Part shown: piece by piece, positions 41,240 through 62,116 of the stretch
Layout of the letters: the number at the start of each line of letters is the position of its first letter
How positions within the stretch are numbered: position 1 is the stretch's first letter
Source of the DNA: Halichondria panicea
Lineage: Eukaryota > Porifera > Demospongiae > Suberitida > Halichondriidae
Assembly: GCF_963675165.1 (NCBI RefSeq)
Contig: NC_087386.1
Location: 6,025,566-6,089,565 of the forward strand
Direction: 5' to 3'
DNA: 64,000 nucleotides
Program-made: the position numbers and the translations under genes
The notes under the pieces: generated by a model
The model's database searches: none
The model's input: only the letters and a program-made list of their open reading frames with translations
Told to the model about the DNA's origin: nothing

Positions 41240-44200
41240 ATGTCTAACTCAAGCCTTGTGAACAGACTGCAAGGTAAACTGCACCAGGAATCTCACACAA
41301 GACAACTACAGGAAGACGTCAACTCCAAACTGCAGACAGAGCATGATCGACTACTCAAGAGGCTAGCTGAGGCTGAGAATCACATCGATCGACTTCGATT
41401 GGGAGCACATCTTGAGCTAAAGAGACATTTTGTTGTCACGCACGAGCACAACTATGGCGACGATGATCATGCCTCGAGGGCCAAACCTGTATTACTACCA
41501 CACCACCCCCCAGTACATGATCTAAACACTGCTACCACTAGAACTGACATGTCTGTTGGAACCACATGGGAGGGGATAGTACATGATATCGAATTACCAG
41601 AAGACACTCTGACTGATTTAGACGAGAGATTACACCACCCATCACCTCAGCATTACACACTCGATGTTAACACTGACCATGAGTCCGAACCTATTGACCA
41701 CACCCCATACGAGGACACCTCCTCCTTGAGCACGGACGGAGATATCTCTCAGATGTCAGCGACTACGATTGTGGATAGGGCAAGTGCTGAGAGTATACAA
41801 TATGCACATTTACTCAAGATCAAGTCTCTACAGGGGAAAATTTCCGAGCTCAAATCAAAGCTTAACGAGAAGGGCTCCCCATTTAATGAAGGGGTTTCCC
41901 CATGTAACGAGGGGGGCGCCTCATTTAACGAGGTACTGACGGGACTACGAGATGTGCAGACGGAGCATACACAGTTGAGTGAGGATATTCACGAGTCACA
42001 GGCCACACTGGAGGCACTAAAGAACAAGTACAAGGGAAAAGCATCTCGGAGGATAGCAAGCAGTCAGCAAGCCATTGGAAAGGAGGTAGTTTACAATTGA
42101 CATTTTAGTCCGTACAGCCTTGTCTTTTCCTACTGTAGCTATAATTGTGTTTGTATGTACAGCCTAAATACTGACCTGACTTTACTTTCCGTAAACTGTT
42201 TCAACAGCCGTTAACAATAATCCAATTTCAACAATTTTATGGTTTTCTGAAAGCTTAGAAAGAGACCTTTCAAATGAATGTGTTTAAATTTAGCATTTTT
42301 CGCCTTTGGACCATGGACTAATCCATGGTATTGGGTCGAAATTAGCTAATTATTTGATCTCTCAAAGATGAACATGTATGACATCATTTGAAACGTCTCT
42401 TTCTAAGCTTTCAGAAAATATGAAAATTAATCCACTGAATTCAAGTTATGGCAGCTGAAAGAGTGTCAGAGTCAGAATTGCTTTTGTTTTTTTCTTCACT
42501 GCAGTTGGCTACTCTTGCTGACCAACTTAGTGACTTTGTGCAGCTCCTACAGTTGACGGCGGAACCGTCTCAAACCTCCACTCCACCCATCTTCATGCCC
42601 TTACACCTCCACACTCCCACACGCCCACTCCTCCACACACCACACAAGACGAGGGACGAGACCACGCCTCTCCTCCCCCCTCCCGGATCATCTGCTACAG
42701 AGAGTGCCCTACATGCTCCAATAAATGGACAATGGCGAGTGAAGTATTATATAATATAGAATGGTCTCAGAATCAAAAAACTGAAGGAATTTGGACATAA
42801 TAATCATACTGTTGCAAGTGCCAATAAACTGCTTTTGGTACTAATGAATTAATTGCCATGTCATAACTAAATACAAGTCATAGTACATGGCAGCTATAAA
42901 ATTATTCTACACAGCCTTTGCTACTGGAAAAGTATTTGTACTGTGCTCACTTTTTAATAATGCTAGCTCTATTAAATTTTTATGACTCCCCTTTCTCCAC
43001 ACAGGTCTCCTCAACCAGTGGAGGATGACTCGGACAGTATCGTGTGTTCAGAGCTCTCTTACGACTCCTCCCCTTTCCTCTCTTCCAAGTATTTCTCTTC
43101 AACGCTGGATATAGAATCACATGATGCTACAGTTGACCCGCTAGAACTGTCACCTGATGGTGTATACCGTACTAGTGATGATGGCAAGTATCAGACACAT
43201 ACAGAGCAGTCAAGTGATGTGTACAATCCACCACCTCAGCGTCGTGATGGTGTATATCGTACTAGTGATGATGGCAAGTATCAGACACATACAGAGCAGT
43301 CAAGTGATGTGTATAATCCACCACCTCAGCGTCCTGATGGTGTATATCGTACTAGTGATGATGGCAAATATCAGACACATACAGAGCAGTCAAGTGATGT
43401 GTACAGTCCACCACCTCAGCGTCCTGATGGTGTATATCGTACTAGTGATGATGGCAAATATCAGACACATACAGAGCAGTCAAGTGATGTATACAGTCCA
43501 CCACCTCAGCGTCATGATGGTGTATATCGTACTAGTGATGATGGCAAGTATCAGACACATACAGAGCAGTCAAGTGATGTGTACAGTCCACCACCTCAGC
43601 GTCCTGATGGTGTATACCGTACTAGTGATGATGGCAAGTATCAGACACATACAGAGCAGTCAAGTGATGTATACAGTCCACCACCTCAGCGACCTGATGG
43701 TGTATACCGTACTAGTGATGATGGCAAGTATCAGACACATACAGAGCAGTCAAGTGATGTGTACAGTCCACCACCTCAGCGTCCTGATGGTGTATATCGT
43801 ACTAGTGATGATGGCAAGTATCAGACACATACAGAGCAGTCAAGTGATGTATACAGTCCACCACCTCAGCAACCTAGAGAAGATACGTTCCTCCTACAAG
43901 AGAGAGCTCCTTCAACAACTGAATTAAATGAAGGTTGTCTAACATACCACACACACTAGCTACTAGTACTCTGTATGTTAACAATTATTAGCTAGCAATT
44001 TGATGTAGGTAGTTAAGTATATAGAGGGTTCGTGTAAGTTATAACTTTTATCATGAATTGTATGATGCATAAAAACGTGGCTACCTAGAGAGCTAAGAAA
44101 ATGTACTCATGAAGTTTTAATTTTTTTACAGGAACTGATCCAAGAGGCACATTCCTGCTGCCAGACGCCCCCTCATTCACGACTGTACCAAGAGGCCAGC

Positions 44201-47200
44201 TATCGGACACCTCCTCATTCGCAACTGGACCAAGCGACCAGCTGTCAGACGCCCCCTCATTCACAACTGGACCAAGAGGCCAGCTATCGGACGCCCCCTC
44301 ATTCACAACTGGACCAAGAGGCCAGCTATCGGACGCCCCCTCATTCACAACTGGACCAAGAAGCCAGCTGTTGAACGCCCCCTCATTCACGGCTGTACCA
44401 AGGGACCAACTATCAGACGCCCCCTCATTTACAACTGGCCAGCGGCCATACTCCCCCTCATTCACAACTGTACCACCGAATGAGAGAATGATATCATCTG
44501 ATAACAGTGAAACTGAACACTACGAACAATTTACTGCTGCACCAAAATCATCCCGCATCCCTAGAGCCAATCATATCTCTCAAAAAGCTCCAAGAAGAGA
44601 ACCAGAACATTTGTACGAACAACCACACTCCCGGCAGTCCCCCTCCTACACACCCTCACACATAGGGCTCGTGTCCACCCACTCCATATCACAGTCTTCC
44701 TCAGCCCACGTCCGAGAGAGTGTCTCAAACCGCCCCCACCACACACTCACACCATCACAAGGCCATCACCATGAAGCCTACAAGTCCTCGCATCAACCTA
44801 CGAGTGTGTCAAACTATCCACAGTCTGTCACAGCATCACAGTTATCTGCATCTGCTACTGGAGCACTTCCCCTCACACCCTCACACCCCCACACTAGCCG
44901 GCCCCTCACACCCTCACACTCTTCAGCGACCAGTGCCTACACACCCTCACACCTCCACACTAGCCGGCAGCCGCCCCTCACACCATCACACTCTTCAGCG
45001 ACCACCTACACATCCTCACACCTCACACACTCGGCTCAGAACCACACTCCATCGTGTAATACCATCGGCACATCCTCCTCATCTTCAGTTATTAGCAGCC
45101 GAACCAAGCCGTCAGAAATGGACAGAGGTGTGGTCAAAACATCCGCCAGGGGAGAGGACAGAGGTGTGGTTAAGATGTCCGCCAGGGGAGAGGACGGAGG
45201 TGTGGTTAAGATGTCCGCCAGGGGAGAGGACAGAGGTATGGTCAAGATGTCCGCCAGGGGAGAGGACAGAGGTGTGGTCAAGATGTCCGCCAGGGGAGAG
45301 GACAGAGGTGTGGTCAAGATGTCCGCCAGGGGAGAGGACAGAGGTGTGGTCAAGATGTCCGCCAGGGGAGAGGACAGAGGTGTGGTCAAGATGTCTGCCG
45401 AGGAAGAGAAGGAGAAGCAAGACTACACCACACTCACTGTGTATGTCTACAATGTACCACAGTGATTATGTTTATAAGCTAGGTTTTAAAGCTATCACAA
45501 TTATCGTACCCCTCGTGCGGCTAGGCCTTGAGGTGTAATAATATTATATTGTTCAATGTCTTCATATTGAATTCCTGTATACGTATACACACATGTATGG
45601 AACAGGTGCAGTCATTAGCTGTTATTGTGACTGACAGTCCTTGTGAAGTTTCATACTTTGTGATCTTACAGACTAAACAGTTGTTCAGTATAAAATAGTT
45701 ATCAAGTTGTTATTTTTGTTTTTTCTGCAGCTCTGCCATTGATCAGTTGAGAGCTGAACTGGACCAACTTAAGGAGCAGATAATGAGGTCACAATCGTCA
45801 GTGGTCCTCACACACCCACACCGTCGTCACTCCGATCACAGCTCCACACCGCCCACACACTCGGCATACAGCAGCTATCCCAGTCACACCCCTCACAGCT
45901 ACACTCACCATGCCTCACAAGAAGTACACCCTCACGAAACGACTCCGATATACGCCTCCTCGTCCCTCCCTTCACACACTTCCCTCGTAGCCTCACCCCC
46001 TCACAGCACGCCCCCTCACCACACCTCCCCCAGACGCTGTGTCCATACTGAGCAAATCACAACAGTTGAACTATCATCACCTGAGGGGCATTTATCGAGT
46101 ATACCTCTTCTTTATACCCCCTCGAGGACTATTAGCGCCATGGCAACACCGCAGACCACACCCTCTCACGGTATGAGCGACGGAACACAACTAGACACAG
46201 TGAGCAACGCAGTGTATAACAATCAACCAACTTTCAGTAGACATTTGTCAACACACACCCGACATTTCAGAGCCGGTTCAACACCGCAATTTAGTGATAA
46301 TTCAACTCCTTTGAGAACTGGTGATTTATTTGGCTCCAATACAAGACTCAGTACACCGGCATCAGTGAGTAATATCGGTTATGAACAATCGTCTAGAAAC
46401 TCGCAAACCGAACTCTCGAATCACGGAGCTTTGTATAGTAGTAACCAGAGCACTACACGTCGTATGACATCATCAACTAGACGTCCATCAAATGATCGCT
46501 ATTCTGTAGAGGGAGAAAAAATGAAAAGAAGTTTAGAATCGTTTGAAAGAAGGCCAAGTGTTGAAAAATCAATATCGGATAGCAAATCTGGATCGTCGAG
46601 ATTTTCAAGGAGCTCTAGTTTTGAACGACAAACTCGTGAATTTGATGATGATTGGTCATGTCCGCAGTGTAGTGGTAGAGGAACAAGTTCCACTGCTGTA
46701 TCCCCCGGGGGAACACGTACTCAGACACGCACACACAAGTGTACTCAAGTGTATAGATCTCCAACACCCACGATGAATAATGGCCGCATCAACACTGGCA
46801 GGGAACAAGGCTTGGGCACGATGGATAATGGCCGCATCAGCACTGGCAGGGAACAAGGCTTAGGCACGATGAATAATGGCCGCATCAGAGAACAAGGCTT
46901 GGGCACGATGGATAATGGCCACATCAGCACTGGCAGGGAACAAGGCTTGGGCACGATGGATAATGGCCGCATTAGCACTGGCAGGGAACAAGGCTTGGGC
47001 ACGATGGATAATGGCCGCATCAGCACTGGCAGAGAACAAGGCTTGGGCACGATGGATAATGGCCGCATCAGCACACATGGCAGAGAACAAGGCTTGGACA
47101 CGATGGATAATGGCCGCATCAGAGAACAAGGCTTGGGCACGATGGATAATGATGGCTTGGGCACAATGGATAATGGTGGCTTCAGCACACATGGCAGAGA

Positions 47201-47615
47201 ACAAGGCTTGGGCACAATGGATAATGGCTGCATCAGCACACATGGAGGCTTAGGCACAATGGATAATGGCCGCATCAACACTGGCAGAGAACAAGGCTTG
47301 GGTATTGGATCCATGAGGGACAGAGCCACTCTGAGGAGCACAGCTGACCATCGTAACCAACCCTCTACAAAGACACAGTCAGGTGTGTGTGTACTGTACA
47401 CGTACGTCTTGCTGTGTATATGTGGTATCTACCCCCTCTCATTGATGGGACTAAGTAGTTTTCTACACAATACATGTGTACATACTATACTTTCTAATGG
47501 TGTTTTGGTGCTTCCTCCAATCCTATGTAAAAAACATTTCTTATAATTTGTAGTTAGTCTAGTTACTCCCTCCAATGTAAGTATATGCCATTAGCCTATA
47601 AGGGCTGGTTGTGCG

Positions 47616-47672
<57 letters not shown>

Positions 47673-49696
47673 ACGCACACACACACACCAGGTCAAGCTG
47701 ACAAGAGAGACTACAGTGCCCAGGCAACCACTCCTGACAATGTCAGGGGGGAGGAGCCAAGCTTCGCTCAAGTGATTACCTCAACACCCACAAAAACCAA
47801 CAGAACTGTCCAACAAACACCACATGCAGTACCCGCAAACCAAAAAGCACTCTTCCATTCCGAGGACTCAATCTCTCCCTCACCCCCAGCGGCTGGAGAG
47901 AGAGATCGCTCACGGGAAAAAAGGAGTGTAAAGTTATCAAGTCCAGCCTCTCCCTCAGGCTATGGGTCTACACAACCACATGCTACTTATCGTACCGTTG
48001 CAACCACCCGGCACTCTACTCCGGGTGCAGTACACAGAGTGGCAGTCACCTCACAAGATGGCCAACCTAACACCACGTCTCCCCAGCACACACATTATCG
48101 GAGCACAGGTCCAGCCTATCCCTCAGGCTATGGGTCTACACAACCTTATCGTACCGCTGCAACCACCCGGCACTCTACTCTGGGTACAGCAGATGGCCGA
48201 CCTAACACCACCTTCCCCCAACATACACATTATCGGAGCACAAGTCCAGCCTATCCCTCAGGCTATGGGTCTACACAACCTTATCGTACCGCTGCAACCA
48301 CCCGGCACTCTACTCTGGGTACAGCAGATGGCCGACCTAACACCACCTCCCCCCAACATACACATTATCGGAGCACAAGTCCAGCCTCTCCCTCAGGCTA
48401 TGGGTCTACACAACCTTATCGTACCGCTGCAACCACCCAGCACTCTACTCTGGGTGCAGCAGATGGCCGACCTAACACCACCTCCCCCCAACATACACAT
48501 TATCGGAGCACAAGTCCAGCCTCTCCCTCAGGCTATGGGTCTACACAACCTTATCGTACCGCTGCAACCACCCAGCACTCTACTCTGGGTGCAGCAGATG
48601 GCCGACCTAACACCACCTCCCCCCAACATACACATTATCAGAGCACAAGTCCAGCCTCTCCCTCAGGCTATGGGTATACACAACCTTATCGTATCGCTGT
48701 AACCACCCGGCACTCACCTCCAGGCACAGCACACAGAGTGACAGTCATCTCACAAGATGGCCGACCTACCTCCCCCCGGCACACACATTATCAAAGCCGC
48801 CCTACTGTAAGAGACACCCTCCATACAGAAAGAAGAGACTACGGCAGTAACGTATCCATGGCAGCAAGACACACACCACTCGAAGGCAACTATAAACACT
48901 TTACTACATCAGCCACATATGGCCCAACCCCAACCAATCTCATGTATGGACCCCCCACAGTCGTGACCCCCAGCAGACAAGAGAGGGGACCACCCACAGT
49001 CGTGACCCCCAGCAGACGAGATAGGGGACCCGCCACAGTCGTGACCCCCAGCAGACAAGAGAGGGGACCACCCACAGTCGTGACCCCCAGCAGACGAGAT
49101 AGGAGACCCGCCACAGTCGTGACCCCCAGCAGGGTGGTATACGTATCGACACACTCTCCATCGGACGAGGAGCTGTATCTCTCCGAGCCAGTTGGTACAA
49201 CACAGAGGATAAAGGTCAAAGGTGGGAGGAGGCTGGTTGTGAGACCTGTGCATTATGTTGTGAGGGGGAGTGGCTTTGACAGTGGACAGGAAGTGAAGGT
49301 CAGAGGTCCTTGTATTGCTAGTTTAAGTACATCCTACCCATCTCTACCGTGCATATTATTTTGGATGGTCTTTCCAATAGCTAGTGTGTTAGTTTTTTTA
49401 TCAATCAATTTGACCACATCAAAAGCTTATACTCTAGCAATTTTTCCATAATCAGTTCAGATTCTCTAGCACTCAACCAATTAATGTGTTTGTTGTAGAC
49501 TAACGCATATAATTATGTTAGTTGAATCCGTAGAATAAAAGTTACATTTTGTTACCTCCGCCCTTCCCAGATGATGGACGGCCATGGTGGTCAGCTGGAT
49601 CTGAGCCAGGCTCTGCGTCTGGCCAAAACCCTCAAGAAAAGATCCCGCAAGATGCAAAGCTCTCTCAAGGAACTGGCCAAACACAAGAATATCTAG
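41240..49696 (+). CDS. AKNA-like coiled-coil protein with extensive tandem repeats
   Basis: Seven exons (41240-42085, 42505-42734, 43005-43933, 44132-45440, 45731-47382, 47692-49298, 49571-49696) join in phase to about 2232 aa. Near residue 35 the sequence [20 protein letters not shown] then [10 protein letters not shown] matches the AKNA signature (LL..YAEAENTIDQLRLGA). Further coiled coils are [16 protein letters not shown] (about residue 195), [15 protein letters not shown] and [15 protein letters not shown]. Between them lie six in-frame minisatellites. The last exon is a basic helix, [20 protein letters not shown], at a place where AKNA has a similar helical end. Human AKNA organises microtubules at centriole subdistal appendages. 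Intron 2 uses a GC donor (CAATG|gcgagt). Orthology rests mainly on the signature block. Confidence 0.75.
42190..42455. repeat. Foldback repeat family A copy (AKNA-like intron 1)
   Basis: Contains tggttttctgaaagctta, agagacctttcaaatgaa, catttgaaacgtctctttct and aagctttcagaaaata in inverted arrangement. Confidence 0.8.
43156..43875 (+). repeat. Coding minisatellite: 90 bp (30 aa) x 8
   Basis: Eight tandem copies encoding [18 protein letters not shown] then SSDVYxPPPQRx. DNA copies differ at only a few bases, so the array is young or homogenised. It lies in exon 3 of the AKNA-like gene. Confidence 0.97.
44164..44457 (+). repeat. Coding minisatellite: 42 bp (14 aa) x about 7
   Basis: Unit encodes [14 protein letters not shown] with small variations, in exon 4 of the AKNA-like gene. 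Confidence 0.93.
45121..45408 (+). repeat. Coding minisatellite: 36 bp (12 aa) x 8
   Basis: Unit encodes [12 protein letters not shown]. It ends the fourth exon's repeated part, before [10 protein letters not shown]. Confidence 0.97.
46771..47305 (+). repeat. Coding minisatellite: about 48 bp (16 aa), irregular, about 12 copies
   Basis: Unit encodes [16 protein letters not shown], with shortened and expanded variants, all multiples of three. Confidence 0.93.
47619..47688. repeat. (CA)n microsatellite before AKNA-like exon 6
   Basis: About 70 bp of (ac)n with a few g substitutions, ending at the cag acceptor at 47691. Confidence 0.95.
47939..48725 (+). repeat. Coding minisatellite: 135 bp (45 aa), about 6 copies
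   Basis: Unit contains [20 protein letters not shown] and later [14 protein letters not shown]. Copies begin about 135 bp apart (48121, 48256 and so on). Confidence 0.95.
48950..49135 (+). repeat. Coding minisatellite: 39 bp (13 aa) x about 5
   Basis: Unit encodes [13 protein letters not shown] or [13 protein letters not shown] variants in exon 6. Confidence 0.95.
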
Positions 49697-50087
49697 GGCT
49701 AGTTTGAATTAACTCTGTGTCTATGATTATAGCTAGCTTGCAATTGCAATATTGCTATTTTGACCGCCATTAATTTTGTTTGAATTGTTGAATCATTCAA
49801 CGTATACGTGTTATGATATTAAATACTGTTATTATAAAATAAGTTGATTAATCACATTATATATGTACAAAAATTCAATAAATATAATTATGCCTATAAA
49901 TATTCCAACAGTGATCACACAAGAGCATATAATAAACAACAAGATTTGCAATCAACTGAACAAAAGGTTAAATGCATGGCAATCGGTTTCTATAGTGACT
50001 ATACGTACGGTTGCTATGGAGCAAGTTCTCCACAAACACAAATTGCAGTTTAATAACATGCTCACACACAAAACACACGTCACAAGG
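49697..50087. other. Convergent region, AKNA-like / BRD4-like genes
   Basis: AT-rich 3' UTR sequence for both genes, with aataaat-type signals near 49877. No ORF supported. Confidence 0.5.
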
Positions 50088-51041
50088 TTATGATGATAGA
50101 GTGTCCATTTCAAACTGGTTCATGATGTCCATCTGGTGAGTCATGTCCACTTGCTGCTTCATCTGTGCGTGTGTGGGTGGGGTCAGTGGGTGGGGTCAGT
50201 GTCAATACATCATATATAATTTTTCTATAGCCAATAATGGAAAATTAGGTACTTTTCTGCTGTTTAACAATTGAATTTTGTCGGGACCATAATTTGGTAA
50301 TTTTTCGGCTTTGGACCATGGGCTATTATTATCCATGGTATTGGGTCGAAATTAGTAAATTCTTTGATCGCTCAAATATGAACATGTATCACCATCTGAA
50401 AGGCCTCTTTCAGAAAATCACAAAAGCAGTGAAATTGGATTGACGGTATATTATTATCTCAGGGCTAACCTTCTCTCGTTGCTTCCGCTGCTCTGCTCTC
50501 ATTCGCTCCCTCCTCAGACGTGCCTCTTCGTCGCCGTCGGTAACCTTGCCCCCCTCCCCTCCGGGAGATGAACCATCTGACCTCGGCTCAGACATTTCGA
50601 CCTTCTCTCTGGGGTCACACAGAAAAAGAAACACTTTATTAGGCAGATCTTTTTAGGACATAGAAAGAGACATACTGCACGTGCTAATACGAACAATAAA
50701 AGTTGTAGGTGTGCCAGCGCTCTAAGCCAAACAATTAATCTAATTAAGAGATGACGTGGATTGATAGTATGTTAGTTATGTAGGTAGGTACCTTTCTTTA
50801 GCTTTCTTGTGTTCTTCCTCCACATGTTTCCTCTGCTGTGTCTTGGCCACTTCTTGTTCCCTTGCCAGTCGTTCCTGAGAGAAAGTTGACAGCACATTGT
50901 AATCATTACGCCAACCATCAACTTTAAAAGCATGCATTCTAGAGTTCTAAATTATACACACAGGTTTGTCACTATTCAAGCTATGGCATCCACCCACCAC
51001 ACAACGCCCACACAATCACTCCCCACCCACACACGCCCACA

Positions 51042-51100
<59 letters not shown>

Positions 51101-54100
51101 GCTCTTTCTTCTCCATGGCCTGTCTCCTGAAATGCTGGAAGCTGGAGTTGGCCGATGGTATGGGAACCTTCTTCACTGCCACACTGGGACTGGGCAGTTC
51201 TGGTTCAGGGCTGTTAGGAAGGAGGGTGGGCTTCACTGGCTCGGGTGCGAGTGGGAGTGGGAGTGGGAGTGTGGGGTGTGTGGGTGTGGGTGTGGAGGTG
51301 AGGGTGGAGAGGATAGAAGCAGCGGATGGCTTTGGTACAGGTTGTTTTGGAGGGGGCATCACTGATGGTCGTTGTCCAGGATTAGTCGGTGAAGGGTGAC
51401 CTCCAGGTATAGGAGCGGCCTGTTATGTAAGATGAAAGCAAGTTACATAACACACAAGGGAAACCACATGACATTCACCATTAACGTAGGGGAACCAACC
51501 ACATGATAACATATAAGAAACCACATGACATAATCACAAAACCACATGGACATAATCAGAAACCACATCAAAACACAAGAGAAACCATACAATCATGTAC
51601 CATGTTGAAACATAAACATAACACGTCACATGACATGTTTAGCTGACCTTATTGGTTGATACTGGCTTATGTGTGCCTCCAACGTTAAGTGATGTATCTA
51701 CACAAGAAAAGAAAACACTTCTTTATATTCAGAACACAACAGTAACAACCATCTTCAAACAAACAACACAAACAGACAAACACGAACACAAATGAATAAA
51801 TGCACACGTCATGACAAACACAAACACAAGAGTACTGTATGCGTGATTTGATTATTGTTCCTATCATTATAGGCGTCCCTATTAAGACCAGAGAGCTAGT
51901 TAGTTAGCTAGCTAGCTAGAGTCCTGCTATTGCTCAGCGACCTTGCTCCGAGTCTGAACTGGAACTGGTGGAGGACCCACTACCAGAAGAGCTGCTCTCA
52001 TCGTCTGAGTCATCAGAGCTGCTGCTACTGCTACTAGCGCTCAGGCGTGAGGCTTTGTTGTCAGTCACTGTCAATGAGGCGGAGCCAAGACCACCACCTG
52101 CAGAGGGAGGGGCTGCTGTTAACACACACTTGTCATTGCAAGTATACACTATAAATGTATTACTGCTTTGACACCAGTGTATGATCAATGGCCACCTTTA
52201 GACCAACACTGATGTGATAAAGAGCTGGCCTGAAGTGAAGAACACATGCTATGGAGACTATGGGGCCTGTATTATAGAGGGTGGCCTGCTAACACAGGTC
52301 CAAACACATGCTATGGAGACTTTTGGGCCCATTAACCTGGCTGTATTATAGATGGTACTAAAAGCCTGCTTAAAGGGACACCACAATAGATGTATATGCA
52401 TGGGCTTCAAGAATCCTGCCTACTTGGAATTGAGCACGTACATGTACAATGTAAATTTCCCTTAGTTTATTATTTATAAATATTGAAAGCCTTACTTTTA
52501 CTGGTCTTGTGTTTGATGGTTTTGTTGCCTAGTTTTCCACTGACATCCTCGAGTCTCTTCTCAAGCTCTGCCTTCTTACGAGCTGCCGAGGCCTCGGGAT
52601 TCTTGGATTTTTGAACTGTGTGAGGAATACAATTATCGGGTAAGGTAATTACAAGCTTCTGGTGGTGTGCCTATAATTAGAGAGAGTACAGTACATGTAC
52701 AACGCAATATTTAAATGCTACCACAACACGAACAAAACTATAATACTGTTTTTACATGTACCACATTTAGTATAAAAGTTTTCTACTGATAGCAATGCTT
52801 CTAGAACATTCTGACCAGCCATTATTATATTGAAACCCACCATTCAGACTTAACTATGTACAGTGTACATTCAATATAATTGTGTTTTACAACAATCAAG
52901 TTCTCTAAAAAATGTACAGCAAATGGTTTTTGATATCACTACTTTATCCCAAGGCATATTCTGAAGTTATAAATGGCTGAATATAATGCACTGGACAAAG
53001 CTTAACTCTTACGTACATGTAGCTATGTATATGAGCTATAACTCACTGGACGGTCTCTTCTGCTTCTTGAGAATGGAGTTGATATATTTCTCTAACTCTC
53101 TAAGAGTGGAGGGTTTCAGAGTCTCAAAGTCAATCTCAATCTCGTCAGGAGAGCTGTCCTTTAGTTCCGGTTCTCTCATCTGTATAATGTGGACCACATC
53201 TCCTAGTTTCTTGCCAGGCAGCTTATTGATGTTCTGACTTAGTTGACGCTTTTCATCGTAAGTCATGGGACGTGTTTCATCGTCGCTGCTCGGGTAGCCA
53301 CTCAGAGGGCGCTTCTTGGGAGGGGGTCTGGCGGGAGGGCAATACAGGAAGTCAAAAATAGCATCTAAACAATGTACCAGTATGCTATATTGTGTGTCAT
53401 GAATTAATATGACTTGGAATACTCATAATAATATATGCATGTACTGTACGCACAAACTGCACACTGTGAAAATTACAAAACTCTGTTCCTTTAATAACAA
53501 ATGCCATATCAACTCCAGTGCATGTAGCAAGGGATACATGTACACACGGCTATAAAGCTGTATACTCACTTGGACAAAGCCTTCTTAGGAGCAGCCATTG
53601 GTGTGGCTGGTTTAGAGTAGTTCTTAGGTTGTTTCTTCTGAGGAGGCAAAGACACGGAATTCTTGGATGCTTTCTTCTTTGGCTTCTTCTTATTCAAGAG
53701 AGCAGCTGCAGCGTTCAAGGGTGTGAATATTGGGTCAGTGGGGTCAATGGACTTCCTCTTCTTCTTTTTTCCTCCTCCTCCTCCAGTCAAAGCAGCCAGA
53801 CGCTCATACACATCTTCAACCTGGAGTTAGAAAATAGAAGACATGTACATAATAATATATGCAACATGGTTACAGTACAATGAACGTACATGTTATACTG
53901 GCTAACAATAATTTATTATTAGAGTGAGAGAGGGCAAATGCTATTCAATATATCCTGAGAGATTGTATGAAGCTGAAACCAACCAGTCATTAGTAGAGCT
54001 TATGTGGGGTTACTATCAGCACATTTTTGCACTGCTCTAGTGGGCACCACACACAAAACTAAAACCATAGATAAACACCCACACACCCCACACACACGCC

Positions 54101-57100
54101 CACCTGTTTCTCGAGATAGCGCAGCTGCACTGCTCTCTTGTCCTCACTCTCCGAGTCTTCCTCTTCGTCTGATGAACTCTCGTCACTTCCCTCTGTCCCA
54201 CTATCATCAGAGGAGCTCTCTTTAGGCGGAGGAGGAGGCTCATCTGGGATCTTGGCAAAACGCAACTCAAACACTTCCTGTGAAGACAAGATAGGGTGTG
54301 TTATATGTACACACAGACATTGTAGCTCACGTAACTATGTATACTCATTTATTACTGATACAGGCTTCAACAAACACCAGCTATATTATAAGTCAATAAT
54401 TACACTTTCTACAACACGGTGTAAATTATACATCGGTCTATAACGCATCTCTACATTTGAGCACACGTATAACTAATGTGCATGTACTATACTGATCAAT
54501 ACAGCATTCTATAAACACCAGCTACAACCAGTTATGCTCTAAAATATCAATTGTCCTCCTATATACACACATACTTTGTACAAGAGGCCATCTTGGTTAT
54601 GACATGGACACAAGGCATGGGGGCACGATTTACACAACAAACCAGCTCAGTTTACATAATAATTTAAGTGACTCTTATACCTGTAATAATCTGCCCATTT
54701 TGACGACGTCATGCTCTGGTGGGTTGTACTTGTAACAGTTGGTGAAAATGAGCCGGATGTCAGCTGCAAATTCATTGGCATTCTTGTACACTCGCTCTTC
54801 CAAATTTTTCTGTACGTGGTAATAAGAACAGGAAATAAATGATTAGCTCAAATACTGAAATAGGGATCAGACCTTTTAAGTGGTGGGTATTTTCGATCAT
54901 GAAACACACATTTTATTGTCTGACTGTGGTGAACATTTTTGTCTAGAGGTGGTTAGTTGCCTACCACACCACTGACCAATAAGGGCACATCCCTCTATCA
55001 TTATACAGCTACATAGTACACCCAGCCACATGTGCTAAGAAACTAAGGGTGTATAAAAAAGGAGAGGGCATGCAATAGCTTGCGAGAAAAAACTAAAACA
55101 GGCAGTGGAAAAGTGCAGTAATATCTAAAAATAAAGTCTATTAATAGATTTTTGCGTACAGTACATAGTATATCCGGTCGGTGGCTTCAGTTTTTACTCG
55201 CACATAGGGTTGATAGTCAGTGTGCATCCCCTCTCTCTTTTATACACCCTTGAAGAAACTATATAGACATGTATCAGAGGTTTCTAGGTAAACTTCTTTC
55301 CCCTGACTTGAAAGCAAATGCTAATGACCTCAAGTGTGTAGAATCATCTCCACTTTTACATTCTCTAACGCATTTCAAGTGACATGAAACTGTTTCTGTT
55401 CTAACACATACACCATGGACACACACATAATAAGATGACTCGATCTCTACTCATCACTAACACATTTGGTGGCAAGCTCACCTTGACTGTTCCTAGGTCC
55501 ATTGGTTTCTTGATGATGGTGTGATAGTCAGCCAGCCCCAGGGATTGGGCATCCACAGGTTGGTAGAATGGCCAGGCATAGCCCTGTAGGGGGGAGAGGG
55601 TTAGATCCAAATATAATCTTGCTACCATATGTATATCGGGTTTCGAATGCGAGGTTGATCGATTGTGAATGACACTGTACCAGCAAGCATTGATTGCGTT
55701 TCTAACTATTGAGAGGAATCGCATGCAAAAATTGCATCCGTGCATGCGTACTCTTTTTATTCCATTTTTGCTAAAATGCAATCGAAACAACGTTGCATTT
55801 GAAACCTGATACATGATATGTAGCATTGGATACAGTCACTGAGTGTAGTGCACACTGGAACTGAGTACATGTGATAATGACATGTGGAGAGCATGTGCCT
55901 ACCATATGGTGAAGCCACACGCATACCATACACTGTAAGCCACACACAAAGACACTATAAGCAGCCACACACAAAGGCACTATAAGCCACACACACACAC
56001 CACACACTGGGTTCAACATGTGTGTGCGAATCACTACAAGTTCAGTGCATTGATGTCATTACGGTCACGTGATAACGTCCAGGCCACAATGCACTGGACT
56101 TGTAGTGATTCGTGCACGCATATCGGACCTCCTCTGGTACAATGTATATACACAAAAGAAAATGGCTGAAATAAAATCCTACTACTAGAGTTTGGATACA
56201 TAATCAACTGTGGTACATGTACATACAACACCGTAGCTATCACATTGTAAGAGTTACCGCGTGTTTCTTTGACAGTATCTCCTTGAGTAAAGTACTGCAG
56301 AACCGGAGCTGTACTGAGAGTGGTTTTTGCTTCCTCTGTGACTGTGTTGACTCTCCAGGGAGGTCCATCTTAGGCCTCTTCACCTGTCTAGTGGACTCTC
56401 TACGCTGGGGTACGAGGGGGATAGGAGGAAGGACTGCGTTGGGACTTGGCTGACCAGTGGAGGGAGTGGTCGTGTCCGCCTGCCTCTTGACACCACGGCG
56501 ACCCTGTACAGACACAGAGGAGGTACAATATCCTTAATTAACAATCCCTGGTGTAAACCACATGAACATTGAATCCGACATGCAGTATCGATTAGGCTTG
56601 ATTGAGCACTTTACTTACATTCCGTTCACGTGTATATAGGCCTATAGGCTTATCAATGCTGAGTCAGATAATCAAGTCCCATGATCCCGCATGCCGTACC
56701 TCCTCCGGTATAGACACATCAATTTAGGCAAATTAGGAGTTATTTAGAATTAAGAGTTATTTTTAGCGTAACTAACGACCCATGAATACTTGTGGAGCTA
56801 GTTTAACGAACCTTGAGAAGTTGTTGAGGAGCCGTGACAGTGGTCGACACGGAAGGGGTGGATAGACTGACAGCTGCCGTTGCTTTGTGCACAGCTACTG
56901 GAGCCGGAGGGGGGGTGGGCACAGAGGGTGTGGTAGACTCAGACTTTCTGATAAGTTTTCCTCCCTTTTTGCCCTTTGGAGTGGCAGCGATTTCCACCTC
57001 CTAAATTTACATTAGTATGAATATCATTATGAATATGCCAGCCGCCCACTGATACACACACACACCTCTTTGGGCATATTTGGGAGTTTCTGCTCAAAAA

Positions 57101-58409
57101 TTCTCTCCACAGTTTGACACATCATGGTGATATCCTGCAGTGGTAATTATGGTCACTAGTGGAATGTGCTGACACGGAATAATCAATAAACAGGCACACA
57201 CGAACGGAGAACTAACAGTAGTATCAATTCTTACATCTGTTGGCTTGTTATATGTGTAGCAATTACTGAACACGAGTCTGAAATCATTGATGCAGTCTTG
57301 GCCGCTGTGGTATAAGTTCTGCTCCAGTTTGTTCTTGATAATACCCATATCCATAGGCCGTTTGATGACTTTGAAGTAATCCTAAGAAAGAGAGCGATAA
57401 TAGCCACAGAAGGTGACGGTATTGATACCCCAAACACACAAATATTGATAGATCAGACCCTTACATGATATTGATTAACAGGCAAGTATCGTATCCTTCA
57501 ATAATTATACCTGATTAACCGGAATGATAAGACTGACCAGTGTATACACAAGGCGCGTACAAAATAAACAAGTTTAACCACATTTTGGGCGAAAGCTCAT
57601 TTTGGGTGGAAGCTTGAAAAGCTCACTACATATAATTATGTATACAGGAGATAAAGTGAATGATTTTATGCTTGTTGAACTCACTGGTAAACCAAGAGCA
57701 ACAGGGTCTACAGGTTTATGGAATGGCCAGGCATACTGGTGTCTCCATAACACTCGGAGAACACTCTTGAGTAGAAACTGAAGCTGATTGGTTTGTCTTC
57801 CCAGGCTCTTCCTGCCAACCACCTCGGGGGTCAGCACTTTTGGTGACTGTGAATAAAGCACAGAGAGACAATAACACACATAATAATAACAGTGACACAA
57901 TTATACTACACGACAAAATTAGTTGATTGTCGCCCTAGGGGAAGATCGAAAGAAACGATTATTTTACGTACTGTTATTGAATGTTGTTCATAGTCTTCGT
58001 ATTTCGACGATTGTCTTCTTATTCTTTTTCCTAGTATACTCTCCTGGGCTGCATTGGTTGCTACTGGCGATACCGTCGTCACGTCAACCATTTTGTTGTA
58101 CGTGGCAACAGACTTTGGTTGACTCGCATCTGAGCCTCTCTGCAGCAATGAGTTAGTTGTAGTGAGTCCACTCGTAGTGATAGCTTCTGTTTTGACTTCC
58201 GTTACTTTAGGTAATTTATTAGCTTGTAATTGTGCGGCAATTCTCTCGAGATGTGACACTTTCTTCATCGTCGTGGGAGTGATATGATAACCTGGTGAGA
58301 CTTGTGCGGTTGCTATGGATGATTTTGATATGATGCTCTCTGAATTGACTTCTAAATTGGCGACTCTAATGGCGGCTGAAGACGTTCCCACTTGCAGGTT
58401 GGGTACCAT
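50088..58409 (-). CDS. BRD4: BRD4-like BET double-bromodomain protein, short and long C-terminal forms
   Basis: Eighteen coding exons on the minus strand join in phase: 58409-57972, 57846-57685, 57381-57235, 57134-57066, 57000-56812, 56503-56258, 55583-55482, 54809-54681, 54277-54104, 53820-53570, 53327-53047, 52615-52496, 52115-51942, 51697-51648, 51419-51099, 50874-50792, 50608-50470, 50162-50088. The long form has about 1049 aa. BD1 (about 170-270): [30 protein letters not shown], acetyl-lysine Asn in [10 protein letters not shown]2 (about 395-490): [29 protein letters not shown] Ser/Glu/Asp segment, then the ET domain ([20 protein letters not shown]). The Ser-rich end is [13 protein letters not shown] and stop if exon 13 of the list reads on (829 aa). 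Splicing continues to a charged tail and a helical end, [16 protein letters not shown], like the BRD4 P-TEFb-binding C-terminus. BET proteins bind acetylated histones and promote elongation. A 5' noncoding exon upstream (donor tttc|gtaagt near 58510) is likely. Confidence 0.93.
50240..50455. repeat. Foldback repeat family A copy (last BRD4-like intron)
   Basis: Shares ttttcggctttggaccatgg, gctcaaatatgaacatgta and gaaaggcctctttcagaaaa with the other copies. Confidence 0.75.
51043..51098. repeat. (CA)n microsatellite at a BRD4-like splice donor
   Basis: About 55 bp of (ac)n. On the coding strand the donor GAGCAG|gtgtgtgt runs straight into the repeat. Confidence 0.95.
51934..51945 (-). promoter_or_regulatory. 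Alternative end: exon read-through to stop (short BET isoform) or splice donor (long isoform)
   Basis: The coding strand reads GAGCAAG|gtcgctga. Reading through adds GR and a TGA; using the weak donor gtcgct joins in phase 1 to exon 51697-51648. Both outcomes keep all core domains. Confidence 0.6.
54821..55481. other. BET gene intron between the two BD2 exons, no distinct element
   Basis: Intron sequence of about 670 bp. I see no coding exon or recognisable repeat in it. Confidence 0.4.
56026..56113. mobile_element. 88-bp foldback element in a BET intron
   Basis: The arms cgaatcactacaagttcagt and the right-hand actggacttgtagtgattcg (continuing gcattg/caatgc inward) are inverted repeats of about 26 bp with one mismatch. 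The right side is followed by atatcggacctcctctgg, a family D end. Confidence 0.75.
56514..56715. mobile_element. MITE family D-related copy
   Basis: Begins cagaggaggtacaatatcc and ends ccgtacctcctccggta, inverted-repeat ends; contains cgattaggcttgattgagc. Confidence 0.6.
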
Positions 58410-58688
58410 CTGAGGAGGTAGGCTTCGTACTTGTAGCGTAGTAGTTTTGAACCTGTAGAAAATATGAATAATGTGGTTAAGCTTTTAGGCTTCGACTGGT
58501 TATAACTTACGAAATAATTAAAGTTACGGCGCAAAACTTGATGAATACAACAAGCAACTATAGCTCAACCATTTGCTACTATCAGTAGCCATGTACAGGT
58601 AACCCACAAAGTAGAATCGGGGTGACGAAATGGATAGGTGGATCTAACATAAGCCAGACAATTTAAACCTTTAAAAGCTTGATACGCT

Positions 58689-59027
58689 ATGATCTGTGAT
58701 CAGACAATGTCCCAATGGTTGAGTATAGTTGCTACACCGTGTAGAGTAAGCAAGGATGTCCCACACAGAGCTCTTAGTGGGACTTTTTATCCGCCATTAT
58801 GTACGCACCCACGTGGCCTAAAAGTAGCCGACCTCTTTAGAAATACTGTTGCTTTACGGTCACCTACCCATCTGCGCCATAAGCAGAGGTGGACCCAGCA
58901 GTTTCTAGAGGCGGATGGCTTTCCACAAGAGAGCTCTGCATTGGATCCATCTTTCACTTCTTCTGTCAGGGTCGTGTGTAAACTACTTGAAAATCAAGAT
59001 TTGATACGTCTTTCATCTTTTTTATAG
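58689..59027 (+). CDS. Small unrecognised ORF between BRD4-like and INTS11
   Basis: A 112-aa open frame starting MICDQTMSQWLSIVATPCRV (or at the second Met, 58707). It is basic and without obvious transmembrane segments; the first 30 residues could act as a mitochondrial presequence. Middle: LFRNTVALRSPTHLRHKQRW. I do not recognise a family. It is intronless, diverges from the BET gene, and ends about 200 bp before INTS11 in the same orientation. The frame covers most of the available gap and its composition is protein-like, but it might be a chance ORF or 5' exon. Confidence 0.4.
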   Translation: MICDQTMSQWLSIVATPCRVSKDVPHRALSGTFYPPLCTHPRGLKVADLFRNTVALRSPTHLRHKQRWTQQFLEADGFPQESSALDPSFTSSVRVVCKLLENQDLIRLSSFL

Positions 59028-59223: not shown

Positions 59224-62116
59224 ATGGCTGAGATCAAAGTTGTTCCGTTAGGTAAGCGATCAATGCACCCTTTACTGGCGTTACTGTAACTATATCTCCC
59301 CCTCCATATGCTGGTTTATTAATGGCTGTCAGGAGCTGGCCAGGGTAAGCACACACTGGGTGAACATGCACAGCGGAATCAACCATATTTATATCTTTGA
59401 CACATACACACATAGATGTTGGTCGTAGCTGCATATTGGTGTCCCTGGGAGGTAAGAACGTGATGTTGGACTGTGGGATGCACATGGGCTTCAATGACGA
59501 GGTATCTAAACCAAAACATTCACTATGCACTGTTTATAAATACATGAAATGCATCAATTAATGATTATTGTAGAGAAGATTTCCTGATTTTTCGTACATC
59601 ACTGAATCTGGGAGATCACTCACTGAGCACATTGACTGCCTCATAATCAGGTACAGTGGTGTCTCCTTGAAGAATGCGTTTGTAATAGTGTTCGAGTGAT
59701 CATTTTACATGTACATCCATCCATTTTACATTTCTAGTCATTTCCACCTTGACCACTGTGGTGCTCTTCCCTACTTCACTGAAATGTGCGGCTATAATGG
59801 ACCAATCTTGATGACTCATCCGACCAAAGCTATCAGCCCCATCTTACTGGTAATGCCAAACTTAATAGTTATAAGAAACGTTCTTCACGCTCTTAATTTT
59901 TTAGGAAGACTATAGAAAAATCAGTGTGGAAAGAAAAGGAGAACAGAATTTCTTTACTTCCCAAATGATCAAAGATTGTATGAAGAAAGTGACCACCATA
60001 AACCTGCACCAAACTATCAAGGTACAAGTCGATGGATATAACTGCAGTATAATTATGACATACCTACTGCAAGTTTCAGAGCTACATGTACAAGCAATAG
60101 CAATCAAACAGTGATGCTAGTTACACTTGTTGGTGTACACACACACACACACACACCCTCACAGATACCACACTCCTCACACCCTCTCTAGCTCACACAC
60201 ACACTCACACCCTCACAGATAGCACACTCCTCAATTACCATAATTATCTTAGATTGCTTAAAGCCCTGATGTTAAATTTTGTTACAGATTGATAGCGCTC
60301 TAGATGTGAAGGCGTACTATGCTGGTCATGTGCTGGGTGCTGCCATGGTGTTGGTCACGGTTGGAGGGCAGTCGTTTGTCTATACAGTACGTTTGCAGCT
60401 GCTGTGCCTTTATTTTTGTGATTGTTACCATGATTACCTATGCCTACAGGGTGACTACAATATGACTCCTGATAGACATTTGGGGTAAGTTTTACTATTG
60501 CTAGGTATTGTAGAGTTGAGTGGAGAAGCTCCTCTCCTCCCCCTCCTGGCCTGCCCTTGTTAGAGCACTAGTCTCTGGCCATTGTGACATTGCAACAAGT
60601 TCATGTTGTTATTTCATGCAATCTTTTTTCTGCAGCTCAGCATGGATTGATAAATGTCAGCCTGACTTGCTCATCACTGAATCAACGTATGCAACAACAA
60701 TTAGAGACTCCAAGAGGTGAAATGCAACATTGTGTACTTATTATTCATATACTGTGGTGTATGCATTTGTACAACAATATTCACTATTTGATGTGTGGTT
60801 GGTCCTGTGGTGTAATGGTTAGCACCTTGGACTTTGAATCCAAAGATCCGAGTTCAAGTCTCGGCAGGACCTGTTTTTTAATTATTTTTATTAACTACTA
60901 CAAAAACACTGTAACAGTTCAATTCTTGGGAATACCTCTTTTTATTTCTTTTTTTGATCACTGCAATCACCGCTTCTCTTTTTTGTTGTTGCTAGGTGCA
61001 GAGAGAGAGACTTTCTGAAGAAGATAAACGAATGTTTGGAGAGAAATGGAAAGGTATTCAACGCTTTTAATGCTCATTGCTTACACAACATTGTACCTGT
61101 TAGGTTCTCATTCCCGTGTTTGCTCTTGGTAGAGCTCAGGAGTTGTGCATATTGCTGGAAACCTTTTGGTAGGCCCATACATTCTAACTAAAAAGAATTT
61201 CCACTCATTATGTTTTAAATTTTCCCAGGGACAGGATGAACTTAAAATATCCCATTTACTTTTCTCAAGGCCTGGCAGAGAAGGTAAGGTATTTATGTTG
61301 TCACTCGATGTCTTCTTCAAAGAATTTCTTTTCCCTCAACAGGCCAATCATTACTACAAGCTGTTCATCACATGGACAAACCAGAAAATACGGAATACCT
61401 TTGTACAGCGAAACATGTTCGAGTTCAAGCACATCAAAGTGAGATTAATTACCTCACCTGGTGCTGTTTCCTTAATTGGAATACCCCCCACAGCCGTTTG
61501 ATAGGTCCTATATTGACCAGCCCGGACCCATGGTGGTGTTTGCTACCCCAGGCATGCTGCACGCTGGTCTCTCACTGCAAATCTTCAAAAGATGGGCCGA
61601 TGACGAGAAAAACATGGCAAGTCAATAATTATAATCCTCGTATAGATTATTGCATGCTATTTACTCTCTGCTGTAATTATGCCTCAAGGCGTAGCCGCAT
61701 GAGGGATACGATAAAGCTGACTGTGTGTGTGTGTGTTCTTACTGTAAGCTCTGTAGCTTCTGTAATAAGAGACATGTACAATATATCACCTCTCATGTAT
61801 AATTAATTAGTTATTATGTTATTAACTTCCTGTCCAATGCCCCCCCCTTGATCCCCCCTGCAGCTTATCATGCCCGGGTACTGTGTGGCAGGCACTATAG
61901 GGCACAAGGTTCTCTCTGGGGCTAAGAAGATTGAGATAGACAAGAAGATGGTCAACGTGAGGCTCTCTGTGCAGTACATGTCCTTTAGGTGAGTTTCTAT
62001 GGGAACACATGTACAGTGCACTAATCTCATAAGAGGACCTTTTAATATTGTAGACTTGTGTGTGTTTCTCCAGTGCCCATGCCGATGCCAAGGGAATTAT
62101 GCAGCTGTTGCGACAG
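59224..62116 (+). CDS. INTS11: Integrator complex subunit 11 (3' end outside the window)
   Basis: Sixteen exons join in phase to 404 aa of a protein that is about 600 aa in humans: 59224-59251, 59333-59344 (12 nt), 59416-59501, 59574-59650, 59738-59849, 59905-60021, 60288-60386, 60450-60484, 60636-60716, 60996-61053, 61104-61168, 61229-61283, 61343-61438, 61494-61616, 61864-61988, 62074-62116. The metallo-beta-lactamase zinc site is HFHLDH; further INTS11 landmarks are [71 protein letters not shown] and [16 protein letters not shown]11 is the catalytic endonuclease of Integrator, cleaving snRNA and paused nascent transcripts with INTS9. Intron 14 has a GC donor (ACATG|gcaagt). The C-terminal third is not found by 64000, so the next intron exceeds 1.8 kb or the gene is broken. 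Confidence 0.94.
60801..60872 (+). tRNA. tRNA-Gln (anticodon UUG)
   Basis: A 72-nt cloverleaf: acceptor stem ggtcctg pairs with caggacc. D arm gtgtaatggttagcac contains the A box; anticodon stem ttgga/tccaa with loop ctttgaa gives anticodon TTG. T arm cgagttcaagtctcg holds the B box gttcaagtc. Discriminator T, as in other eukaryotic tRNA-Gln. A pol III terminator (six Ts) follows. No intron and no encoded CCA. It lies within INTS11 intron 9, on the same strand. Confidence 0.96.
60874..60879 (+). terminator. RNA polymerase III terminator of tRNA-Gln
   Basis: A run of six T residues starts two bases after the tRNA discriminator, as expected for pol III termination. Confidence 0.85.

Follow-up and report, generated by a model that had tools for sequence, protein, structure and literature searches.

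We find it reasonably probable that the intron behind the Ser-rich segment of a BET gene in the sponge Halichondria panicea occupies an ancient position, and that this gene, probably the only BET gene of the animal, gives rise at least to the long form of its protein. The exon boundary itself is real and, judged by its likeness to the corresponding boundary of human BRD4, probably ancient. An isoform switch at this boundary is possible, as something that we infer, and the DNA gives no sign of a short form. The gene lies in a window of 64,000 nucleotides (the whole stretch of DNA analysed; contig NC_087386.1, positions 6,025,566 to 6,089,565), and positions are those of the window.

Results

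A BET gene, probably of BRD4/FSH-L type

The gene was modelled with the exons listed in part in Table 1. All 18 introns have GT-AG ends and the frame is kept throughout, exons 1 and 2 (58950-57972) being taken from the open frame only. Pfam detected two bromodomain stretches in tandem (PF00439, E = 7.4e-43) and a BET/ET domain (PF17035) at residues 698-761 (E = 1.5e-26). The tail matched the BRD4_CDT profile (PF17105) below the curated cut-off of 27 bits, both when isolated (residues 1054-1086, E = 6.7e-5, 22.7 bits) and as part of the whole protein (E = 5.8e-4, 19.7 bits), and this sub-threshold match is divided between exons 18 and 19. A six-frame search of the sponge's own genome with PF17105 gave no match at 0.001; the search controls were silent too, and the motif is divided over two exons. 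From the in-frame splice model and the Pfam domains, the sub-cut-off BRD4_CDT match included, the gene is probably of the BRD4/FSH-L type. Among the 9 PDB sequences matched, BRD2 (6cui_A) had the best E-value and BRD4 isoform C the next (Table 1); the chains are of unequal length, so that this order does not show kinship.

Table 1. Features of the sponge BET gene (positions in the window)
Feature	Positions	Strand	Basis and remarks
BET (BRD4-type) gene	50088..58950	-	19 modelled coding exons; long form 1091 aa; in-frame splice model and Pfam
Exon 12, ET domain	53047..53327	-	Pfam PF17035; PDB matches to BRD2 (1.8e-39) and BRD4 isoform C (7.9e-38)
Exon 13	52496..52615	-	symmetric phase 1-1; aligned to BRD2 in PDB 6cui_A
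Exon 14, Ser/Asp/Glu-rich, 174 nt	51942..52115	-	ends in SSSSDSEQ + G, phase 1; symmetric 1-1
Exon 14 donor CAAG/GTCGCT and read-through stop TGA (51936-51934)	51934..51945	-	
Intron 14, 244 nt	51698..51941	-	without AATAAA/ATTAAA; single TATAAA at 51727
Exon 15, 50 nt	51648..51697	-	splice sites and frame only; homologue not found
Exon 16, Pro-rich	51099..51419	-	splice model
Exon 17	50792..50874	-	splice model
Exon 18, start of BRD4_CDT match	50470..50608	-	splice model and Pfam
Exon 19, C-terminal motif and stop	50088..50162	-	PF17105 match, sub-cut-off; ATTAAA downstream at 50054

To count the BET genes, the 131-Mb assembly (39 contigs) was searched with PF17035. Two candidates scored, namely the BET gene and one other, which we take to be a YEATS/AHD-type protein. 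Since the ET profile scored in these two places only and the other reads as YEATS/AHD type, that candidate was rejected as a second BET gene, and the sponge probably has a single one, like the fly.

The end of exon 14 and the nearby stop codon

The minus-strand bases 51945-51934 read CAAG/GTCGCTGA. Exon 14 thus ends with its last full codon followed by one base of the next (phase 1), and reading through the donor adds Gly-Arg before the stop. An acceptor 18 nt inside the exon, at 52097, has a higher score than the one modelled and also keeps the frame. Counted from the upstream ATG at 58950, the read-through product has 871 residues and the spliced product 1091. A preliminary description of this DNA had placed a Ser-rich exon behind the ET domain, with a stop two codons beyond its donor, and the Gly-Arg-stop confirms this. 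It had given lengths of 829 and 1049 residues, both smaller by 42, as if counted from Met43, and four further exons where we find five (Table 1). Its in-frame splicing to a CTM-like end holds as far as the open frame to the BRD4_CDT match is concerned, but that match stays under the cut-off (22.7 bits vs 27).

How often does intron sequence offer such a stop? In this gene, read-through meets a stop within two residues of the donor in 6 of the 18 introns (1, 6, 9, 11, 14 and 15), or in 5 of 17 when intron 14 is set aside. When phase-1 donors only are considered, the expected frequency is lower: it is 0.107 with bases drawn randomly from the introns, and 47 of the 528 intronic GTs read in phase 1 (0.089) reach a stop as early. 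Measured against all introns of the gene, the near stop by itself is not much above chance, although at phase 1 it is expected only about once in 10 cases. It was rejected as a mark of an isoform because six introns of the same gene do likewise.

The exon 14 donor, GTCGCT, lacks the usual bases at +3 to +5. With a matrix built from the 17 other donors (leave-one-out), which is a small set, it scored fifth lowest of 18, above those of introns 9, 1, 4 and 13. The donor is weakish, not exceptional.

Comparison with the human BRD4 boundary

The end of human BRD4-S is SSSSDSEDSETGPA (PDB 36iu_K, residues 689-722), and the change-over between the human isoforms is at ...SSSSDSEDSET/GPA-stop, in phase 1. 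The phase was read from isoform primers, which give, for the short form, ACA G/GT CCT GCC TAA and, for the long form, ACA G/AG ATG GCT; reverse-complemented, the primers are AACAGGTCCTGCCTAATCATT and GAAACAGAGATGGCTCCGA, respectively (PMC6300607). The bases common to both run to ACAG, that is, a Thr codon and one base more, which gives phase 1. This presumes that exon 11 ends at the last base common to the two primers; the end would lie one base earlier if both next exons start with G. We take the frame of NUT exon 2 to be SALP. On that assumption, the in-frame BRD4 ex11:NUT ex2 fusions, in which NUT exon 2 starts CATCTGCATTGCCGG (PMC4670959), fit a phase-1 end of exon 11.

With 18 introns in 1091 residues, an intron of a given phase lies no more than 3 residues from a given site at a rate of ∼0.04, so that the coincidence in position is mildly significant, the site having been picked after the fact. 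Owing to the low complexity of the Ser/Glu run, two local alignments were equally good; they stop 3 residues apart, one at residue 27 and the other at residue 30 of the 31 human ones. The comparison covers two species, sponge and human; searches for relatives of the ET exon gave 48 pattern matches in viral_contigs and 272 in genome_contigs, none of which was confirmed in either set. Taken together, the end of sponge exon 14 is likely to be homologous to that of human BRD4 exon 11. As to the preliminary description's statement that the sponge switch lies at the same place as that of mammalian BRD4, the place agrees (phase 1, where a Ser/Asp/Glu run ends), and the switch and its mechanism do not follow from it.

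The structure of the gene is old in general, since bromodomain I is encoded by three exons in the BET genes of mouse and amphioxus (PMC5133849) and apparently also in the sponge gene (exons 3-5, by our reading of the translation).

Poly(A) signals and acceptors in intron 14

Neither AATAAA nor ATTAAA was found in the 244 nt of intron 14, and one of the two is carried by 7 of the 18 introns of the gene. Because 244 nt are expected to lack both 74% of the time, their absence is nearly neutral. The intron also has a GT-rich stretch with G or T at 19 of 20 positions; three other introns attain 20 of 20.

A last exon hidden within intron 14, as in human BRD4, was sought by scoring its 10 internal AG sites, the first 20 nt excluded, with a matrix from the 18 acceptors of the gene. 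The best site, at 51878 (5.72), opens a tail of 64 residues. The acceptor at 51834 (3.21) would give a tail of 8 residues and outscores four of the 18 acceptors of the gene model (leave-one-out scores of 0.10, 0.17, 1.49 and 3.16); the rest of the intron beyond it contains no canonical poly(A) signal. Sites that would give tails of 2-4 residues scored under -2.7. A human-style last exon within intron 14 is possible.

Intron 13 has an AATAAA 24 bases past its donor (read-through region 52466-52495, minus strand). Judged by the poly(A) signal, it would suit an early end better than intron 14 does, though this is probably due to chance.

Neighbouring genes and other loci

The BET gene is faced head to head by an Integrator subunit 11-like gene on the plus strand, the ATG of the latter at 59224 (by our reading) being separated by 273 bases from the ATG at 58950; two exons of the Integrator-like gene match INTS11 in PDB at 2.9e-40. 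Because the start codons are so arranged, the two genes may share a promoter region. A tRNA-Gln (TTG) gene at 60801-60872 on the plus strand, downstream of the confirmed INTS11-like exons, perhaps lies inside an intron of that gene. On the other side, a convergent gene (44113-49696, plus strand) has long in-frame coding repeats, for instance around 46770-47300 and 48080-48700, with a weak Pfam match of the repeats to Bflower_2 (37.8 bits vs a cut-off of 38) in one of three open frames scanned.

Elsewhere in the genome, a cathepsin-like exon of silicatein kind (L021; G000:C2:656417-656944) reads CGASYAF, with Ser replacing the catalytic Cys, and its best match among PDB sequences was silicatein alpha (8.3e-11). 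Silicatein is a mark of silica-forming sponges, and the exon suggests that the assembly comes from a sponge with silicatein. Seven papain-type protease genes (L011, L012 and L014-L018; G000:C8:493345-521186) are clustered, each with its domain in one open frame; in one of them, L015, the motif is CGSSWAF, the catalytic Cys being again replaced by Ser.

Discussion

The sponge gene shares with human and mouse BRD4 (BRD4-L, 1362 aa; BRD4-S, 722 aa) the two bromodomains and the ET domain, the Ser-rich acidic segment ending in SDSE-x with a phase-1 boundary behind it, and a long tail with a C-terminal motif, which is putative in the sponge, where the match is below the cut-off. It may differ in the origin of a short form: mammalian BRD4-S ends in a last exon of its own, exon 12, whose splice acceptor defines the isoform and on disruption turns S into L (PMC6300607), and a counterpart of that exon in sponge intron 14 is no more than possible. 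Since BRD4-S has a last exon of its own, a choice between reading through a donor and using it is not the human way; the preliminary description's likeness to mammals applies to the position and not to this mechanism. The sponge protein also has a 14-residue segment that aligns to BRD2, whereas the alignment to BRD4-S ends ahead of it. With human BRD2 and BRD3 it has the ET domain in common; these two are without the CTM tail (PMC4053998), for which the sponge gene has a sub-cut-off match. Drosophila FSH (Fs(1)h-S, 120 kD; Fs(1)h-L, 210 kD) resembles it in being the sole BET gene, as the sponge gene probably is, and in carrying the CTM, a putative one in the sponge, in the long form; it differs in that both forms are proven in the fly, where the mRNA for the short form has a separate 3′ UTR (PMC4053998, PMC4883770).

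In our preferred reading, the intron behind exon 14 would be an ancestral one, identical with that which follows exon 11 of human BRD4, and its splicing would yield at least the long protein. Bromodomains that read acetylated histones, an ET domain that recruits partners and a C-terminal motif that binds P-TEFb are known from BRD4 and FSH; by analogy, the long sponge protein would combine these roles, the last through a putative motif. The stop two codons past the donor would be what intron sequence often offers, and by itself would not signal an isoform. Because fly and human make a short form, the sponge may also make one that ends at exon 14; it would arise, if at all, through read-through with intronic polyadenylation or from a hidden last exon.

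The agreement with human BRD4 could also be a coincidence, an intron having been gained independently in a low-complexity stretch without homology to the human exon 11/12 boundary. The Ser-rich run has no unique alignment and two species were compared, which leaves room for this; yet the phase is identical, the order after the ET domain is identical, the intron follows the Ser/Asp/Glu run directly (at the rate of ∼0.04 given above, for a site picked afterwards), and bromodomain I is split over three exons in mouse and amphioxus (PMC5133849) and apparently in the sponge. We regard such a coincidence as improbable. A slightly smaller chance still is given to exon 14 being a cassette exon (174 nt, phase 1-1) whose skipping would drop the Ser-rich segment and leave the C-terminal tail unaffected. 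Exons 13 and 15 do join in frame (1033 aa, no internal stops), and the exon 13 donor, AAA/GTAAGG, has the consensus at +3 to +5, but frame-compatible cassettes are common by chance, and in our small-sample scoring that donor is no better than the exon 14 donor (4.86 vs 4.99).

An ancient short/long switch in the strict sense would make exon 14 a composite last exon: U1 would fail at the weak donor GTCGCT, cleavage and polyadenylation would follow within intron 14, and a protein of 871 residues without the CTM would result, with that of 1091 residues made otherwise. The departure of the donor from the usual +3 to +5 bases and its rank among the 18 fit this idea, as do the TATAAA and the GT-rich stretch of intron 14 (three other introns being richer), the production of both forms by the human and fly genes, with a separate 3′ UTR for the fly short mRNA (PMC4053998, PMC4883770), and the probable presence of one BET gene to fill both roles. 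Against it, intron 14 is without the canonical poly(A) signal that 7 of the 18 introns carry, four donors are weaker, a near stop is nothing unusual in this gene, and human BRD4-S arises differently (PMC6300607). If intron 14 were kept without polyadenylation there, introns 15-18 downstream would make the mRNA a substrate for NMD, which also counts against the switch. We hold this switch to be unlikely, although a quarter-way chance of it is conceded. A fuller scenario is more doubtful still, namely that in the first animals a single BET gene already used its Ser-rich exon as a composite last exon, the weak phase-1 donor being read through for a CTM-less short form and used for a P-TEFb-binding long form, and that the sponge retains this, vertebrate BRD4 having swapped in exon 12 and BRD2/BRD3 having kept the short form only. 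Of the preliminary description's suggestion that the alternative end is ancient, the boundary is thus retained as probably ancient, and the switch itself stays conjectural.

Judged by title, none of the literature matches listed dealt with the isoforms of BET proteins in sponges, cnidarians or other invertebrates, which does not imply that the literature has no such study. In cancer cells, the roles of BRD4-S and BRD4-L differ and are in part opposed (PMC8446420). Drosophila FSH is already known to have a short and a long form (PMC4053998, PMC4883770), and because the fly has them, an early origin of the pair is a natural idea for bilaterians. What the present data establish is a probably conserved boundary only; a sponge with both forms would push the pair towards the base of the animals. 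Should the split date back to the origin of animals, it would count among the basic features of transcription control, and a sponge with a single BET gene would be a simple system in which to study it.
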